A DNA stretch of 64,000 nucleotides from Streptomyces sp. NBC_00190 (lineage in GTDB: Bacteria; Actinomycetota; Actinomycetes; Streptomycetales; Streptomycetaceae), in the NCBI RefSeq assembly GCF_036203305.1, contig NZ_CP108131.1, positions 7,192,001-7,256,000 on the forward strand, written 5' to 3'. The notes beneath the pieces are model-generated. The model was not told the DNA's origin and made no database searches. It was given only the letters and a program-made list of their open reading frames with translations. Below are positions 47,967-58,506 of the stretch, piece by piece; positions within the stretch are counted from its first letter, which is position 1, and the number at the start of each line of letters is the position of its first letter. Both the position numbers and the translations under genes were made by a program.

Positions 47967-48932
47967 ATGAGCAATCTCGATCGCCAGCCCGCTCTCTCCA
48001 CGTGCGGAGGCCGCGGTTTCGTCGTGGCCGAACCGGTACGCGAACTCCTCAGCCCGCGCACCGTCAAGCTCGGGGAGTCCACAGAGGTGCGCCGGCTCCT
48101 GCCGAACCTGGGCCGCCGCATGGTGGGCGCCTGGTGCTTCGTGGACCACTACGGCCCGGACGACATCGCGGACGAGCCCGGTATGCAGGTCGCGCCGCAT
48201 CCGCACTCCGGGCTCCAGACCGTGAGCTGGCTCCACGAGGGCGAGGTGCTGCACCGCGACAGCGTGGGGAGCCTGGCGACGGTGCGTCCGCGCGAGCTGG
48301 GTCTGATGACCTCCGGGCGCGGCATCAGCCACTCCGAGGAGAGCCCGCGTCCGCACGCCCGTTTCCTGCACGGCGCCCAGCTGTGGGTGGCCCTGCCGGA
48401 CGCCCACCGGGACGTGGAACCCCATTTCCAGCACCACGCGGAGCTCCCGCACGTGACCGCCCCGGGCCTGACCGCCACGGTCGTCCTGGGCACCCTGGAC
48501 ACGGCGACTTCGCCCGGGTCCACGTACTCCCCGATCGTCGGTGCGGACCTGGCCCTCGCGGCGGGCACCGAGACGAGGCTCCCCCTGGAGCCGGACTTCG
48601 AGTACGCGGTCCTCTCCATGTCCGGCGAGGCCCACGTCGACGGCGTCCCGGTCGTCCCGGGCTCGATGCTCTACCTCGGCTGCGGCCGCACGGAACTCCC
48701 CCTGCGGGCCTCGTCGGACGCTGGCCTGATGCTCCTGGGCGGCGAGCCGTTCGAGGAGGAGATCGTCATGTTCTGGAACTGGATCGGCCGCTCCAACGAG
48801 GAGATCGTACAGGCGCGCAAGGACTGGATGGAAGGCTCCCGGTACGGCGAAGTGAAGGGCTACGACGGCCCTCCGATCCCTGCGCCGCAGCTCCCGCCGG
48901 GGCCTCTGAAAGCGCGTGGTCGGGTGCGCTGA
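47967..48932 (+). CDS. Pirin family protein
   Basis: The 321-residue bicupin has the pirin metal site: MQVAPHPHSGLQTVSWLHEG, GRGISHSEESP and RFLHGAQLWVALPD. Some pirins are quercetinases. The last 30 residues (RYGEVKGYDGPPIP...) are repeated with about 85% identity 9.4 kb downstream, on the far side of a mobile-element island, so the 3' end marks the island's left edge. Confidence 0.88.
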   Translation: MSNLDRQPALSTCGGRGFVVAEPVRELLSPRTVKLGESTEVRRLLPNLGRRMVGAWCFVDHYGPDDIADEPGMQVAPHPHSGLQTVSWLHEGEVLHRDSVGSLATVRPRELGLMTSGRGISHSEESPRPHARFLHGAQLWVALPDAHRDVEPHFQHHAELPHVTAPGLTATVVLGTLDTATSPGSTYSPIVGADLALAAGTETRLPLEPDFEYAVLSMSGEAHVDGVPVVPGSMLYLGCGRTELPLRASSDAGLMLLGGEPFEEEIVMFWNWIGRSNEEIVQARKDWMEGSRYGEVKGYDGPPIPAPQLPPGPLKARGRVR

Positions 48933-49145
48933 CCTGCGCTTTTCTGAAGTATCCAGATCGGCCGAGACCGGCCGAAGAGAGGCCGCCACTCCTGCGGAGA
49001 TCGTTCCTGCGGAGGGAGCGGCGGGCGCTCCCGGAGGCCCGTCTCGGGCGGTCGACGTTTCCCATGTGTGACCAGCTGGGGTCAGCTTTGCCAGGACCAA
49101 TGCTGACCCAATGCTGACTTTAGTGACAGTTCGTCAGGTCTGATG
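48823..49145. repeat. Left copy of a diverged direct repeat (pirin 3' end and downstream)
   Basis: Covers the last 110 bases of pirin and about 210 bases beyond. It matches 58203-58506 with roughly 80% identity, including CTACGACGGCCCTCCGATCC, the stop, CCAGCTGGGGTCAGC and GTGACAGTTCGTCAGG. The left copy has an extra AATGCTGACCC duplication near 49105. Confidence 0.75.
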
Positions 49146-50146: not shown

Positions 50147-50551
50147 GGCGAACTCCTTGCATAACAAGAGGGATGGGGATGAGTGGGGTGACGCGGCCGT
50201 ACGGCGGTGGAGCTGAGCATCTGCCGGTGCTGGCGGGGGTGGATCCGGGACCCGGCGCAAGCCCGGACGGGGCAGGAGCCCGGCGGGTTCGCCACGGGCG
50301 GTGATCACCGGGGCGCCGCCGGGCATGGAGGGTTGAGCGACGTCATCGCTGCGGCGTGATCGCGCCACCGGTTCGGCACTTGGGCTGCGGACTGGTATCG
50401 GGCTGGCGGTTCTGCCGTGAACGCTCTGGCGCGGTCGAGAGCGGTGCGCGGCGAGGAAGACGCAGGTCAGCGTCTGACGGTACGCAGGCGGCGGTCAAGG
50501 AGGGCGCGTTCGCCCGTGTTGCGATCGCGGGCTCTGCGGCGGGGGTGCTAG

Positions 50552-51993
50552 TAGGGCTTAGTCAGGTTGGGGCTGGTGTTGCGTGTCCTGCGGGTTCGGT
50601 GTGTCGTTGCAGACGTGTGACGCCGGAGGAAATTGCAGCTGTACGTGGCGAGTTGGAGGACTTCGCGACAGAGGTTTTCGAGCCATTCGCGCGTAAGGAT
50701 CAGCGTCGGTGGGGGCGGGTTTACCTGCGGGGCCTGCTCGCGGACGGGCAGCGCAAGTCCGTCGAGCCGATGGCCGCCAGGCTGGGCGAGGACGGTAACC
50801 GTCAGGCCCTGGCCCACTTCATCACCACCAGCCCGTGGGACCCCGCGCATGTGCGGGCCCGGCTGGCCTGGAAGATGGAAAAGGCGATCCGGCCCACCGT
50901 ACTGGTCTTCGATGACACCGGGTTCCTCAAGGACGGCACTGCCTCGGCGTGTGTGTCGCGGCAGTACACCGGCACTGCGGGCAAGGTCACCAACTGCCAG
51001 GTGGGCGTCTCCCTGCACCTGGCCTCGGATCACGCCTCGGCGGCGGTCGACTGGCGGCTGTTCCTGCCCGAGACCTGGGATCCCGCCTCGCCGAAGGCGG
51101 ACCCGGCCAAGGTCGCCCGTCGCACCGCCTGCCAGATTCCCGACGACATCGGGCATGTGGAGAAATGGCAGCTCGCACTCGACATGCTCGATGAGACCCG
51201 CTCGTGGGGCATCGAGGTGCCGGTGGCCGTCGCGGATGCCGGATACGGCGACGCGGCGGCCTTCCGGCACGGCCTGCAGGCCCGCAGCCTCAATTACGTC
51301 GTGGGAATCTCCACCACCCTCTCGGCCCAGCCCGGCCACGCGCTACCGGTCGCCGAGCCGTACTCCGGGATCGGACGCCGGCCGGTGGAGAAGTACCCCG
51401 ACAAGCCGCAGTCGGTGAAACAGCTGGTCATCGCGGCCGGCCGGAAGGCGGCAAAGCCGGTGCAATGGCGTGAGGGCTCCCGGCCCGGCACCGGCCGCAG
51501 CGGCTTCAAACGGATGTACTCGCGGTTCGTGACCCTGCGGATCCGGCCCGCCGGACGCGAGGTCCGCCAAGCGGCCGACAGCCCGGAACTGCCCGAGTGC
51601 TGGCTCCTGGCCGAGTGGCCGGCCAACCAGGGCGAACCCGTCCAGTTCTGGCTCTCCGACCTGCCCGCCGACACCCCACTGACCACACTGGTCCGCCTGG
51701 CCAAGCTCCGCTGGCGCATCGAACACGACTACCGCGAGATGAAACAGGCCCTGGGACTCGCCCACTTCGAGGGCCGCACCTTCAACGGCTGGCACCACCA
51801 CGTCACCCTCGTCTCCGTCGCCCACGCCTTCTGCACCCTGCAGCGGCTGGCCAGAGCCCCAAAAGACACGGCGCCGGCCTGAGCCTCTACCGGATCGTCC
51901 GCGAACTGCAGACCCTCCTCGCCACCTGGAACGGCGCCTGCCCCACCTGTCACCGCGACATACCCACACCAGCCCCAACCTGACCAAGCCCTA
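50552..51993 (+). mobile_element. IS701-family insertion sequence A
   Basis: 1442 bp with 28-bp terminal inverted repeats (left TAGGGCTTAGTCAGGTTGGG..., right its complement with one mismatch). It is flanked by 4-bp target duplications CTAG (50548-50551 and 51994-51997), as usual for IS701. It holds one transposase gene. Its right duplication is also the left flank of the next element. Confidence 0.88.
50617..51983 (+). CDS. IS701 family transposase, -1 frameshift near the C-terminus
   Basis: Frame one runs 50617-51882 (about 421 residues). DDE elements: LVFDDTGFLKDG, PVAVADAGYG and WRIEHDYREMKQALG. The expected C-terminal part (SLYRIVRELQTLLATWNGAC, then PTCHRD) is in the -1 frame and ends at 51983. 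The switch is at 51858-51864, CCCAAAA read as C CCA AAA, a canonical slippery heptamer. Either programmed frameshifting or a one-base indel explains this. GTG start at 50617 is uncertain. Confidence 0.75.
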
Positions 51994-52584: not shown

Positions 52585-53923
52585 GTGAAGATTGAAGATC
52601 ATGCGGTGGCCGCAGGTCACAGCGTAGACCGTGCCCGGTGGCAGGAGTCATTCGAGGGCCTGATGCAGCGGATCGCGGGCCGCTTCGCGCGGGTTGAACC
52701 CCGGCGTCGGATCAGAGGCTTGGTGCTGGGGCTGCTGTCGGACCTGCCGCGCAAGAACTGCTGGACCATAGCCGAGCACATCGGAGACACCACCCCCGGA
52801 CGGGCTGCAGCACCTGCTCCGGCGGGCTAAGTGGGACGCCGACCTGGTCCGCGACGACCTGCGCGGCTACGTGCTGGAGCATCTGGCGGACAAGCAGGCC
52901 GTGCTCGTGATGGACGAGACCGGCGCCCTGAAGAAGGGCACGCACACTGTTGGCGTCCAACGCCAGTACGTCGGAACCGCCGGCAGGATCGAGAACTCCC
53001 AGGTCTCCGTCTACCTCACCTACACCTCCCGGCACGGGCACGCGGGTATCGACCGCGCCCTGTACCTGCCCAAGTCCTGGACCGGCGACATCGAACGCCG
53101 CGAGCAGGCCGCCGTCCCGGACGAGGTGTGCTTCGCCACCAAGCCGCAGCTCGCCCAGCAGATGATCGAACGCGCCCCGGACGCCGGGACCCTGGCCGCA
53201 TGGGCAGCCGGCGACGAGGTCTACGGCGACAACCCGAAACTTCGAGCCGCCCTGGAGACACGCGAACTGGGCTACGTGCTCGCGGTCTCGTGCGCCAACC
53301 GCATCCCCACCCCGGCCGGCCCGCAGCGCGCCGACCACCTGGCCAGGAAGATACCGCGCCACGCCTGGCAGAAGCTGTCCGCCGGACGCGGCGCGAAGGG
53401 CCACCGCTGGTACGACTGGGCGCTGGTCGCCATCACCACAGGCCAGCCGGCCGGACACCAGCACCTGCTGATCCGCCGCAACCGCACCACCGGGGAGCTG
53501 GCCTACTACCGCTGCTATTCTCCCCGCCCCGTCCCGCTCAGCACCCTGGTCACGGTCGCAGGCAGTCGCTGGACAGTGGAGGAGATGTTCCAAAGTTCCA
53601 AGGGACTGGCGGGACTTGACGACCATCAGGTGCGACGCTGGGACTCCTGGTACCGCTGGGTCACCCTCGCACTGCGCGCCCACGCCTTGCTCGCCGTCAC
53701 CATGACCCTCGAACGCCGCGAGCAGACCCCAGCAGACGACGGGACCAGCCCCAGCGGACTGATCCCCCTCACCTGTAACGAGATCCAGCGCCTGTTCATC
53801 GCCCTGATCGTTCAACCAGCCCGCGACACCGTCCACCGACTGCGCTGGTCAACCTGGCGCCGACGCCACCAGGCCCGCGCCCGCCACAGTCACTACCGCC
53901 GCCAAGCCGCCCCTCACCCATGA
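52585..53923 (+). pseudogene. IS701-like transposase with a +1 frameshift
   Basis: The N-terminal part (RIAGRFARVEPRRRIRGLVL, NCWTIAEHIGDTTP) is in one frame. From the five-C run at 52793-52797 the sequence continues one frame ahead (DGLQHLLRRAKWDADLVRDD) and reaches the stop at 53923. Compared with element C, one extra C is the simplest cause. DDE elements: LVMDETGALKKG, AAGDEVYGDN and WTVEEMFQSSKGLAG. The C-terminal domain (CNEIQRLFIALIV, WSTWRRRHQARAR) is in frame here, unlike in element C. Start uncertain. Confidence 0.75.
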
Positions 53924-54104: not shown

Positions 54105-55447
54105 GTGATCACCGAACAGGCAGGCGAGACCTGGGACCGCGACCTGGACCACCTCTTCACCACCATCGGGCACCACTTCGGCCGTGTCGAACCACGCCGC
54201 CGCATGCGGGACTACGTGCGCGCACTACTGGGCCCGGTGGCCCGCAAGAACAGCTGGCAACTTGCCGAACACGCCGGCCACGCCACCCCCGACGCACTGC
54301 AGCACCTGCTCTCCCGAGCCCGCTGGGACCCCGACGGCATCCGCGACGACCTTCAGGCCTACGTCGCCGAACACCTCGGCCGCCCCAACGGGGTGCTGAT
54401 CATCGACGACACCGGCTTCCTGAAGAAGGGCACCACCTCCGCCGGAGTCCAAAGGCAGTACTCCGGCACCGCCGGCCGCACCGAGAACTGCCAGATCGGC
54501 GTCTTCGCCGCCTACACCAGCACGGCCGGCCGTGCTCTCGTAGACCGCGAGCTCTACTTGCCCAGGTCCTGGACCGACGACCGCGACCGCTGCCGCGCCG
54601 CCAAGGTCCCCGATCAGCGGGAGTTCGCCACCAAGAACACCCTCGCGGCGACGATCGTCCGCAGGGCCCTGGCCTCGCCACTGCCAATCGCCTGGGTCAC
54701 GGCGGACGCCGCTTACGGACAGGACAACCGCTTTCGCCGGATGCTGGAAACGTCAGGTGTCGGCTATGTCCTGGCCGTCCCAAAGTCTCAGTTCTCCCTG
54801 GCCGGCCCACGCATCGACAAGGCCTTCGACAAGGCCCCCGACCAGGCATGGGAACGCCGTTCCTGCGGCGCGGGCGCGAAGGGACAGCGCGAGTACGACT
54901 GGGCGGCCGTGCAGTTGCGCCCGGTGGACGAGTACGACCACCGTGACGGCGTGCTGATCCGCCGACGGTGGGCACTGGCACGACGCAGCCTGAGCCGGCC
55001 GGACGAGATCGCCTACTACCTCGCCTACACGCCGCTGGATGTCGCCGTGGACGAACTGGTGCGCGTCGCGGGCGCCCGGTGGGCGATCGAGGAGTGTTTC
55101 CAGGCCGCGAAGAACGAGTGCGGCCTGGACGAGTACGAGGTCCGCCGCTACGTCGGCTGGTACCGACACATCACCCTGGCCATGCTCGCCCATACCTTCC
55201 TCGCCGTGATGAGCACGCAAGCAGCCCAAAAGGGGGATCCGCCGGTGAGGATGCCGTGGTCATCGAGCTCACTGTGGCAGAAGTGCGGCGCCTCCTGGCA
55301 GCTCGTCCACCCCGAGATCCCCGCGCCTACACCCACGCGTTGAACTGGTCGCACTGGCGTCGGCGACGCCAAGCGGTGGCCCGCCGCTGCCACTACCACC
55401 GTCGTGGGCACTCCTTCGAGGGGCAGGCCGGCAGAAGCCGTCCGTGA
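54105..55447 (+). CDS. IS701-like transposase, -1 frameshift near the C-terminus
   Basis: Frame one runs 54105-55343 (412 residues): HHFGRVEPRRRMRDYVRALL, DDE elements LIIDDTGFLKKG, WVTADAAYGQDN and WAIEECFQAAKNECG. After THTFLAVMSTQAAQKG-type sequence the family C-terminal domain (ELTVAEVRRLLA, NWSHWRRRRQAVARR) appears in the -1 frame, ending at 55447. The switch is at 55229-55235, A AAG GGG, a canonical slippery heptamer. In element B the same domain is in frame, so the -1 product is the full-length form. Confidence 0.75.
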
Positions 55448-55584: not shown

Positions 55585-55589
55585 AGCAG

Positions 55590-55663
55590 TAGCGGGGACA
55601 GGATTTGAACCTGCGACCTCTGGGTTATGAGCCCAGCGAGCTACCGAGCTGCTCCACCCCGCG
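55590..55663 (-). tRNA. tRNA-fMet (CAU), initiator
   Basis: A 74-base cloverleaf with acceptor CGCGGGG, anticodon loop CTCATAA, T-loop TTCAAAT and A73. Initiator marks: the 1-72 pair is a mismatch (C and T), and the anticodon stem carries three consecutive G-C pairs next to the loop (GGG/CCC). CCA is not encoded. It is complete and followed by a strong terminator. Confidence 0.93.
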
Positions 55664-55944
55664 TCGATGCCTCCACCATACGGCACCTTTGGCCTGGGCT
55701 TCGCCAGATTTTCCTGCCCGACCTGCTGCCGCAAGCGCTGGCAGCTTGCAGGGGCATCCGATCTCTGCCCGCCTCCGGCGTCATGGGGGAGTGCGGGCCG
55801 CCGCTGTCGGGGAGCGGCGGCCCGCACTGCTGTTTCCGAGGATGTCCTAACGGTTGCGAAGCTATGCGGTTCGCGTGGTGCCGCGGGCCTACCGGGTGGC
55901 CTTGCTATCAGTCTGAGTCCCACGGAAGGCATCGGCGCGAGAGG
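55664..55944. other. Intergenic stretch with no gene
   Basis: The tRNA promoter must lie in the first 60 bases. No supported frame or strong repeat is seen in the rest. Confidence 0.4.
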
Positions 55945-56664
55945 TCAGATGAGGGAGGGCAGGATGCCGCGGGGCCAGTGCCCGAGCCAGAATGCGGCGG
56001 CTGATGGCCGGTCCTGGGCCTCGGTTGAACCGTCGTGCAGCAGGTACTCGGTGGGAGCTACATAGCCTTCGCCCGGGGCTAGGCGTATTCGGATGATGCC
56101 GATGGGGCGGCCGCTGGCGACGTAGTCGCGGTAGTCCTGGGTGTGCGGGTAGCGGTCGGCGTGGTAGTCGGGGTGGACGGCTCGGCAGACCGCTTGGGCG
56201 TCGATGGCACCGAGAATGACGTACCGCACTCCGGGGCCGAGGTTGAGGCAGATCCTGCGGCGTCCGGTGTGCTTGCCGGCGTACGGGAGCTTGTCCCAGT
56301 TGTCGAGGTGCAGCCCGATCAGCCGGCCGTCTTCGTAGTTGTCGGTGGTGGTGGTCATTTCGGCCTTGGCGAAGGCTTGGCCGAGGTACACCGCATCCGG
56401 GTCGCCCAGGGGGTCGGTGAGGGCTTCAAGCGGGAGTCCTTCCCGGTACGGGGGCCGGACGACCTCCACCAGCGTGCTGTCCAGGGGGCGGCGAGGGGCT
56501 GTGACGGCCTTGACATCCACCTCGGTCATGGGGCGCCACTGCCCGGCGGGGATGAGCGCGCCGGGCTCGTATGCGGTCTCCTCGGGGCGGGTGGTCCGGA
56601 CGGTGGCGATCTCGCAGCGGGCGCGGAGGGCGGAGGGGTCGCCGTAGGCGATGTACAGGGGCAC
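55945..56664 (-). CDS. Unassigned 239-residue protein of the RiPP locus
   Basis: Family not recognised. The middle has RLIGLHLDNWDKLPYAGKH, then RRICLNLGPGVRYVIL and LAPGEGYVAPTEYLLHDGST. An HxD followed by strands, an RICLNLG core and a distal His is reminiscent of cupin or Fe(II)/2-oxoglutarate oxygenases, which would suit a tailoring step, but this is a guess. GTG start with AGGAGG 7 bases upstream. It lies 14 bases after the pentapeptide-repeat gene, so it is in the same operon as the RiPP precursor. Confidence 0.7.
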   Translation of the reverse strand: MPLYIAYGDPSALRARCEIATVRTTRPEETAYEPGALIPAGQWRPMTEVDVKAVTAPRRPLDSTLVEVVRPPYREGLPLEALTDPLGDPDAVYLGQAFAKAEMTTTTDNYEDGRLIGLHLDNWDKLPYAGKHTGRRRICLNLGPGVRYVILGAIDAQAVCRAVHPDYHADRYPHTQDYRDYVASGRPIGIIRIRLAPGEGYVAPTEYLLHDGSTEAQDRPSAAAFWLGHWPRGILPSLI

Positions 56665-56678
56665 GGGGTCCTCCTGGG

Positions 56679-57353
56679 TTAGTCGTCCCCGATGGTGATG
56701 TCGAGTTCGTTCACGAGGGCTTCGGCGAGGTCGGATTGCTGGCCGGGGTCGATGCGGACCTTGGCGAGGTTCGCGAGGCCGCGGATTGCCGACAGATCGT
56801 TCTCACGGAGGTCGGTGTTGCGGTAGCGGCCCGTGCCGAATTCGGTGAGCCGGAGCGTGCAGTCGGTGAACACGACGTCGGACAGGTCGCAGTCGGTGAA
56901 CGTGGCTTCCTTGAGGACGCAGCCGATGAAGGCCACGGGGCCGGTGACGCGGACCTTCTCGAAGGTGGCGAAGTCGAGCTTGCAGCCTTCGAACAGCACG
57001 TCGTCGAGGACCAGGCCGTCCAGGGAGGCGCCCATCAGCTTGCAGTCCCGGACGTGGACGCGGGTCAGCTTGCTGCCGGTCCAGCGTGCCGAACCGAGCT
57101 CGCTGTCGCTGATCTCGACGCCGTGGAGGTTGACCGCCTCGAACTCGAGCCGCTTCGCGCGGACGCCCGCGATCCGGCCGGTGACGAGCTGCGTGTCCGC
57201 GAGGTCGAGTGATCGGAGATCGGCGTCCCCGTACGCGAAGTCCTGGACGGTGCCGTGGGAGCTGTCGAGGCTGTCGACGTTATTCAGGTAGAGGCCGGGC
57301 TCGTCCAGCCCCGGCAGGGTGATCGTGGCGTGGCCGAAGGTGCGGATGGCCAT
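56679..57353 (-). CDS. Pentapeptide-repeat protein (possible RiPP immunity)
   Basis: The 224-residue protein is a right-handed beta-helix of pentapeptide repeats (A/C-D/N-L/F-X-X): ADLRSLDLADTQL, LEFEAVNLHGVEISDSEL, VLFEGCKLDFATFEKV, ATFTDCDLSDVVFTDCTL. About 25 repeats are visible between residues 35 and 195. Pentapeptide-repeat proteins such as McbG, AlbG and MfpA mimic DNA and protect gyrase from toxins. Its place between the precursor and the unassigned gene suggests self-protection; that is inference. ATG with AAGGAG upstream. Confidence 0.83.
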   Translation of the reverse strand: MAIRTFGHATITLPGLDEPGLYLNNVDSLDSSHGTVQDFAYGDADLRSLDLADTQLVTGRIAGVRAKRLEFEAVNLHGVEISDSELGSARWTGSKLTRVHVRDCKLMGASLDGLVLDDVLFEGCKLDFATFEKVRVTGPVAFIGCVLKEATFTDCDLSDVVFTDCTLRLTEFGTGRYRNTDLRENDLSAIRGLANLAKVRIDPGQQSDLAEALVNELDITIGDD

Positions 57354-57420
57354 GGTGCTCCTTGTCGTTGGGGCGGGGCGGCCCCGCGCGGCGGCGGGAC
57401 CGCCCGGACGTCGGCGGGTG

Positions 57421-57681
57421 CTACTTGTTCTTCCAGTTGTCCCAGGTGGGCCGGTTGTCGAAGGTGGCCGTGGGGTTGTCCCAGGTCGGGCGGTTGTCGA
57501 ACGCGGCGAGGGGCTTGGCGTGCGCTGCTTCGGAGGTGGGCTGGTTACTCCAGGTGGCGTTGGTCCAGGCGTTCTCCCAGCGGGCGACGGCGGCGGTGCC
57601 CGCTGCCTCCAGGAGGGACTCGAATCCCTCCGCTGAGTCCATCACGAGCGTGGCGGCGTCAGTGGGCGTGTGAACGGACAT
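57421..57681 (-). CDS. amcA: RiPP precursor with eight aromatic-x-Asn motifs (multi-cyclophane type)
   Basis: The 86-residue peptide has a leader of about 33 residues (TLVMDSAEGFESLLEAAG) and a core rich in W/F-x-N. The motifs are W35-E-N, W39-T-N, W44-S-N, F61-D-N, W67-D-N, F74-D-N, W80-D-N and W83-K-N. FDNRPTWDN occurs twice, 13 residues apart. Aromatic-x-Asn is the substrate of radical SAM/SPASM enzymes that join the ring to the beta-carbon of the third residue (triceptides). The name follows a database family remembered as multiple-cyclophane RiPP AmcA; not checked. AAGGAG precedes the ATG. It overlaps the maturase stop by 23 bases. Confidence 0.75.
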   Translation of the reverse strand: MSVHTPTDAATLVMDSAEGFESLLEAAGTAAVARWENAWTNATWSNQPTSEAAHAKPLAAFDNRPTWDNPTATFDNRPTWDNWKNK

Positions 57682-58205
57682 GTCGCGTGACTCCTTCGAG
57701 TAGGGCGATCTTGGCGGTGGTGCAGTACCGGGTCCTGGTCCCGTCGAACCTGCCGGCATGCTCGAAGTACCGGTTCGCGGCGTGGGCACCCCCGCAGAAG
57801 GCGAAGGCGGGGCAGGTGTCGCGGCACGCGTCGACGCCCTGCCAGAACTCGGTGATCCAGGGGGTGCGTTCCTCGGCCTCGGCCACGAGGACGTACAGGC
57901 CGTCCTTGAGCACGTTGCCGGTGGTGAAGTCGCCGAACCGGGCGTCGGTGAACCCCGCCAGCTCTGGGGAGAGAGCATGACTACCCCGCCGTCGTAGGCG
58001 ACAGTGGGCATCGGATCCCAAGGTGCAGAGGTGGGTGTGGGGGCGGTGTCGTGGCTGCCGAGAACGGCACCGGCGAAGTTGAGCACCCGCTGTGTCTCCC
58101 GCAGCCGGATCACCGGATTGGCCCGCCAGGCGTCCGCGAGGGCGGCCCAGAACTCGGTCGCGCGCACGGGGTCGGACTCCTTGGCCCCGCGGTTGACCCC
58201 TTCTG
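57659..58205 (-). pseudogene. Radical SAM/SPASM peptide maturase, 5'-truncated and frameshifted
   Basis: Only the C-terminal part is left: EFWAALADAWRANPVIRLRE, MPTVAYDGGVVML, then after a frameshift ELAGFTDARFGDFTTGNVLK and the SPASM cysteines (VDACRDTCPAFAFCGGAH, RYCTTAKIALLEG). The radical SAM CX3CX2C domain is missing; homology stops near 58205, where the pirin-derived repeat starts. A CT-repeat expansion at 57970-57975 adds two bases. It resembles cyclophane-forming maturases of the FxsB/GrrM/AmcB group. Clearly non-functional as it stands. Confidence 0.78.
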
Positions 58206-58311
58206 GACGAACGGCACCCGCTACGGCGAGGTCAAGGGCTACGACGGCCCTCCGATCCCTGCGCCGCAGCTCCCGCCGGTGCCGCTGAAGGCGCGCGGAC
58301 GGGTGCGCTGA
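58203..58311 (+). pseudogene. Pirin 3'-end fragment
   Basis: Encodes FWTNGTRYGEVKGYDGPPIP and then APQLPPVPLKARGRVR with stop at 58311, matching the last residues of the pirin at 47967-48932. The rest of the gene is absent. It differs enough in DNA to be a paralog or a copy from a related strain. Confidence 0.8.
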
Positions 58312-58506
58312 CCTGCACGTTTCTGAAACGTGTCGATCTAGGTCAGCCGAGGAGAGGTCGCATCCCGCGCGGAGATCGTTCCGGTGGGGCGGGCGACGGG
58401 GGCTCCGGGAGGCCTCCTCCGGGCCCTCGATGTTTCCCAGGTATGACCAGCTGGGGTCAGCTTTGCCCGGACCAATGCTGACTTCGGTGACAGTTCGTCA
58501 GGATGC
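58203..58506. repeat. Right copy of the pirin 3'-end direct repeat
   Basis: About 80% identical to 48823-49145. It begins inside the pirin coding part and ends GTGACAGTTCGTCAGG. It forms the right edge of the mobile-element and RiPP island and abuts the truncated maturase. Confidence 0.75.

Follow-up and report, generated by a model that had tools for sequence, protein, structure and literature searches.

The small open reading frame at positions 57421-57681 (minus strand) of the 64,000-nucleotide stretch of Streptomyces DNA analysed here (the window) is very probably amcA from an operon for a multi-cyclophane RiPP of actinobacteria, amcB - amcA - PPR (pentapeptide-repeat protein) - oxygenase, in which the gene for the maturase has been destroyed. 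Translation of the window DNA gives 86 codons starting with ATG, and by eye a ribosome-binding-like stretch, AAGGAG, lies 9 nt 5' of the start; the 86-residue ORF proposed in the first-pass annotation is real. Its product scores 73.3 bits against the NCBIfam model NF041721 ("multiple cyclophane-containing RiPP AmcA"), above the curated cut-off of 40, and 89 homologs were found among 92 candidates at E 0.001 or better. Among homologs with a source name, the majority are already labelled AmcA at NCBI and nearly all come from Streptomyces or Kitasatospora. Judged by sequence, then, the peptide is a member of an already named family, AmcA, in which it is ordinary as a precursor and to which it adds one more, orphaned, member. 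The first-pass annotation was right in seeing a RiPP precursor whose maturase would be a radical SAM enzyme that forms cyclophanes; it looked to the XyeB, GrrM and FxsB types, whereas the family is AmcA/AmcB, though GrrM/OscB is the nearest. AmcA/AmcB (NF041721/NF041718) is probably the actinobacterial triceptide group of Phan and Morinaka (2022). A literature search for AmcA and AmcB returned nothing relevant.

All eight aromatic-x-Asn motifs that had been listed are present in AmcA: W35EN, W39TN, W44SN, F61DN, W67DN, F74DN, W80DN and W83KN. They are not there by chance, since 200,000 trials of residue shuffling never gave more than five [WF]-x-N motifs. We scored the conservation of each ring site over 90 sequences, the window AmcA and its 89 homologs. 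An aromatic-x-Asn motif occurs at F61 and at W67 in 86/90 sequences each and at F74 in 89/90; at W80 the residue is aromatic in 89/90, with Asn at the +2 position in 64/90 and Asp in 25/90. W83 is followed at +2 by Asn in 53/90 and in 34 by some other residue, most often Lys; W35, W39 and W44 form aromatic-x-Asn motifs in 37, 28 and 31 of the 90, respectively. At these last three sites 36, 44 and 41 of the 90 sequences are gapped, 10 or 11 sequences at each site keep the Asn but have lost the aromatic, and some homologs carry FDN..FDN in place of the N-terminal W motifs. Because of these losses and replacements, the N-terminal segment is best described as variable, yet motif-bearing in some lineages. 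The alignment thus points to F61, W67, F74 and W80 as the conserved ring sites, a core kept among the homologs, and to the W35, W39 and W44 motifs as lineage-specific and often lost. The earlier claim of up to eight cyclophanes was too strong: in view of the lower figures for W83, W35, W39 and W44, eight rings, as predicted from the motifs, are an upper bound for the window AmcA. The count of [WFY]-x-N motifs per sequence ranges from 2 to 8, so that the window AmcA does lie at the top of the family range, but it shares this place with 16 other members (17/90 sequences in all). In the accessible text of PMC11002830, the OscB, XncB and MscB triceptides carry aromatic-x-Asn/Asp/Ser motifs, like those of AmcA, that are joined i to i+2 by SPASM radical SAM enzymes. 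The same text gives the partners used by OscB, whose family is the closest one characterised: Trp is linked to Asn or Asp, and Phe to Asn. This choice of residues fits the AmcA core, Asp variants included.

The core contains FDNRPTWDN twice, as the first-pass annotation noticed: unit 1 (F61DNRPTW67DN) at 57475-57501 and unit 2 (F74DNRPTW80DN) at 57436-57462, both on the minus strand, 39 nt apart from start to start and differing at 2 nt. The suggestion that these C-terminal units grew by DNA duplication was not borne out, as two near-identical units are found family-wide. We compared the units in a set of 95 rows (the 80 loci of the species scan described below, 14 further loci and the window; five genomes are in it twice), using the 27 rows with two exact FDNRPTWDN units. 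The mean identity of unit 1 to unit 2 is 22.3/24 nt within one locus and 22.2/24 between loci; these 27 loci bear no sign of a recent duplication, whether by copying or by gene conversion.

An intact form of the operon is found in a relative, locus L035 of genome G054. There the genes stand in the order amcB - amcA - PPR - oxygenase, as in the window, and amcB encodes 372 aa that score 446.3 bits against the AmcB profile NF041718 (362 positions, curated cut-off 425 bits). Window and L035 are 95% identical in amcA, 90% in the PPR and 88% in the oxygenase. AmcB forms a family of its own, in contrast to the OscB, XncB and MscB enzymes; for the L035 protein the nearest other family is GrrM/OscB, at 230.3 bits, below its cut-off of 310. 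A species scan (one genome per species) was run with patterns derived from the window AmcA, so its counts are valid for this precursor type. It gave 91 loci with an AmcA relative; in the best 80 of these 91, an amcB match was present at 78, the PPR at 79 and the oxygenase at 41. Homologs of the precursor do therefore lie near radical SAM genes; as the core motifs are also kept among them, both refuting conditions that the first-pass annotation had set turned out in favour of its reading. The only one of the 80 loci without a PPR, L118, is also the sole record that is not actinobacterial: it is acidobacterial (Solibacteraceae) and has AmcB and an AmcA-like match, with a relative of the oxygenase upstream. 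A full-length amcB ORF (alignment span >330 residues) was found in 79 of the 95 rows and was absent in 16, window included; amcB loss may recur across loci, and some of the 16 may be draft-assembly faults.

In the window, amcB is reduced to two minus-strand pieces in different frames. The SPASM (C-terminal) piece at 57659-57976 shares 23 nt with the start of amcA; its profile-matching part, about 57677-57976, covers NF041718 positions 264-361 only and scores 118.7 bits against the cut-off of 425 that L035 exceeds. The middle piece, at about 57964-58206, matches positions 190-268 with 48.4 bits. Everything N-terminal of these is missing, the SAM/iron-sulphur cysteine motif included. DNA homology between the window and L035 (92.5% identity) runs from 55927 to 58204 and ends there. 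On the foreign side of the break, 58203-58502 (plus strand) is 80% identical to window positions 48824-49138, that is, to the 3' end and downstream stretch of ORF 47967-48932, so that the source has its other copy in the same window. By eye we presume this ORF to be pirin-like; it has no NCBIfam match at E 1e-20. Between it and a tRNA-Met gene at 55589-55663 lie three ORFs (50356-51882, 52871-53923 and 54105-55343) that we take, by eye, to be transposase-like. A sequencing error might account for the frame change in amcB, but not for the missing N-terminal half. On this reading of the DNA the window amcB is a pseudogene and not a working maturase. The SPASM gene that had been placed directly upstream of the precursor is thus there as a SPASM piece, but it is only an AmcB fragment that lacks the radical-SAM half and changes frame. 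A search of the strain's own genome (2 contigs, 100% estimated completeness) with the AmcB profile gave no match above the cut-off, the best being the remnant itself, and maturation by another AmcB of this genome was rejected on that count. With amcB a pseudogene and nothing else in the genome above the AmcB cut-off, AmcA is probably not cross-linked in the window strain.

Could another radical SAM enzyme of the strain, for example one of FxsB type, mature the precursor and close rings at all eight motifs? The genome holds three FxsB-type maturases above their own cut-off of 370 (524.6, 424.3 and 581.8 bits), FxsB is also a cyclophane former by its NCBIfam name, and the amcA ORF is intact and constrained relative to L035. 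These enzymes nevertheless belong to a different subfamily, their AmcB-profile scores (77-97 bits) fall short of the 425 required, and four of the eight motifs (W35, W39, W44 and W83) are not family-conserved. We regard a working eight-ring triceptide as highly improbable, although an FxsB-type enzyme of this genome, or a product made elsewhere, could matter in principle. The five other radical SAM matches that were classified comprise the three FxsB-type enzymes and two that fall below every cut-off; a sixth, weak match has 23.4 bits on the AmcB profile.

The next gene of the operon, at 56679-57353 (minus strand), encodes an intact PPR of 224 aa, for which we propose a role in self-immunity. 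It matches Pfam PF13599 and PF00805 and is modelled (pLDDT 95.6) as a right-handed beta-helix of pentapeptide repeats. The Foldseek best match of this model is EfsQnr (TM 0.68, E 1.7e-9); EfsQnr, a clostridial PPR and AlbG are closest, and HetL is among the fold matches. A profile built from 40 chosen sequences aligns with EfsQnr over positions 14-213 of 224 (E 2.3e-26) and also matches MfpA, QnrB1 and AlbG (there labelled McbG-like). The protein thus has the fold of EfsQnr, AlbG and MfpA, an almost full-length profile alignment to EfsQnr, and an acidic character (net charge -15 to -2, median -10, in 40 members), but these three are only 14-19% identical to it in the model comparison. By sequence, the designed PPR 5dra matches best, and the best NCBIfam match is HetL, at 36.1 bits well below its cut-off of 260; the best Qnr-type score (33.2, cut-off 240) and that of MfpA (22.8, cut-off 360) also fall short of the curated values. 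Because the similarity is generic in this way, we infer the step to gyrase rather than read it from the matches. There are precedents for immunity PPRs in AlbG, CysO and McbG, and AlbG and McbG adjoin peptide genes, as does the window PPR (both points from the accessible part of PMC9886550). In the speirobactin cluster, a PPR correctly pointed to gyrase, as stated in the part of PMC12406682 returned by our search.

The close coupling of the PPR to this type of precursor is the unexpected part of the finding. The PPR adjoins amcA in 79/80 loci, on the opposite strand in six (L060, L071, L079, L094, L099 and L123). Across 295 genomes of the genus, 20 have the PPR subfamily at E 1e-35 or better and 15 have AmcA, all of these being among the 20. 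The remaining five (G062, G156, G202, G231 and G276; loci L182-L186) lack AmcB at E 1e-60, and no amcB match turned up in the 8-13 kb surrounding the PPR (the contig of G276 stops some 1.1 kb from the PPR); their PPR genes are possible stand-alone immunity genes. Conversely, a PPR was found within 2 kb of 0/10 AmcB genes that lack an AmcA of the window type (five above and five below the AmcB cut-off), by which a tie of the PPR to AmcB as such was rejected. An eleventh such gene, G121:C9, below the cut-off and outside the ten-locus count, lies on a contig with no PPR among the listed matches of G121. These co-occurrence counts ignore kinship; with that qualification, the pattern in the sequences is that expected of product-specific immunity. 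Against a strict link of PPR and AmcA, G121 carries two further PPRs of the same subfamily on contigs other than its amcA contig.

Some of the AmcB genes without AmcA have neighbourhoods of their own. Two of the ten loci have a different likely precursor, ending WDKWQDWTKILN. At L177, L178 and L179, AmcB relatives below the cut-off are accompanied by a different likely precursor with several C-terminal W-x-N/D/K motifs and no PPR within 2 kb; at L179 a PPR is found about 5 kb away. An oxygenase relative lies near AmcB in all three of L179-L181.

The PPR might instead be a partner in biosynthesis (a scaffold, chaperone or peptide carrier) or have some other role, in which case it would be silent on the target of the peptide. 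Its place directly 3' of amcA and in the same direction at most loci would suit such a partner, PPRs do have other functions, with HetL both the best, if sub-threshold, NCBIfam match and among the fold matches, and the extra copies in G121 are away from amcA. A partner would be expected to disappear with its pathway, however, and 5/20 PPR genomes keep the PPR with neither AmcA nor AmcB, which speaks against this role, as do the opposite orientation in 6/80 loci and the want of a PPR within 2 kb of the ten AmcB genes lacking this precursor. We hold the partner reading to be possible without favouring it. As tentative is the proposal to which self-immunity would lead: by analogy with McbG and microcin B17, AmcA-type peptides may be topoisomerase (gyrase) poisons and the adjacent PPR a dedicated, product-specific DNA-mimic immunity protein. 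If so, triceptides would gain their first target, and the window strain would be a former producer that kept its immunity gene after losing the maturase. The bioactivities of triceptides are described as not yet elucidated in the accessible text of PMC12257519, and the PPR link turns a peptide class without an elucidated activity into a target hypothesis. The literature search found no paper pairing "pentapeptide repeat" with "cyclophane"; one genome-mining review, in the portion retrieved, treats pentapeptide repeat protein, radical SAM, RiPP and gyrase together. Since the key 2022 paper on the group was outside the reach of the search, the link cannot be called unpublished.

The last gene, at 55945-56664 (minus strand, GTG start), is intact and encodes a 2-oxoglutarate/Fe(II) oxygenase-like protein of 239 aa, a candidate tailoring enzyme. 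Its profile matches PDB 9vkm, MicC, an alpha-ketoglutarate-dependent non-heme iron oxygenase, with E 4.5e-15; the alignment covers the catalytic half, and the HxD and the distal HDGST motif are common to both proteins. In the metal-binding HxD...H, aligned with that of MicC, H119 and D121 are invariant and H210 is kept in at least 90% of 70 sequences. The fold matches of the model are 2OG oxygenases, though weak, and the protein has no match at all in NCBIfam. Nothing on this enzyme was among the matches listed in a literature search for MicC.

Taken together with the intact relatives, these genes suggest a pathway in which the radical SAM/SPASM enzyme AmcB would link every aromatic of the (F/W)-D-N core to residue i+2. 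Four core rings would result, often together with a fifth at W83 and, in the window subclade with its added N-terminal motif segment, with up to three more in that extension. Oxidation of the peptide by the oxygenase-like protein would follow, and the producer would owe its protection to the PPR. In the window strain, the radical-SAM half of amcB appears to have been lost by the rearrangement at 58204, with the frame change in addition; because amcB is destroyed, amcA is presumably an orphan, possibly translated and without cross-links, beside PPR and oxygenase genes that stay open. The window precursor thereby corrects an over-reading of eight rings and a working maturase.

The whole locus may be decaying, with none of its four genes functional now: what is left of amcB abuts a foreign fragment, and several transposase-like ORFs adjoin the locus. 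Yet the other three genes, amcA, PPR and oxygenase, are open over their full length, and their dN/dS against L035 is 0.19, 0.24 and 0.22, a sign of constraint; values of about 0.2 do not show the rest of the operon to be dead, because they include the time before amcB was lost. Non-synonymous to synonymous changes are 11:8 (PPR) and 11:23 (oxygenase) on the window branch and 13:15 and 16:17 on the L035 branch, counts too small to separate the time before amcB loss from that after it; the 23 synonymous against 11 non-synonymous changes in the window oxygenase also go against simple decay. We think a pure relic unlikely. That the PPR gene stays open although the maturase is gone fits kept immunity, and recent loss of the maturase would explain the retention of the PPR equally well.

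Finally, the AmcB proteins of the window's clade have CX4CX2C instead of the usual CX3CX2C in the N-terminal cysteine motif (e.g. L035:5215-6330). This form occurs in 20/79 full-length rows (two genomes counted twice), all on one side of a single tree branch, and has a precedent in GenD1 in the accessible text of PMC4340712. A separate branch shows another insertion of one residue in the iron-sulphur loop: the AmcB proteins of L078, L097, L100 and L116 (Catenulispora) have CNxDCxAYC, that is CX3CX3C, and are encoded beside a full set of amcA, PPR and oxygenase.
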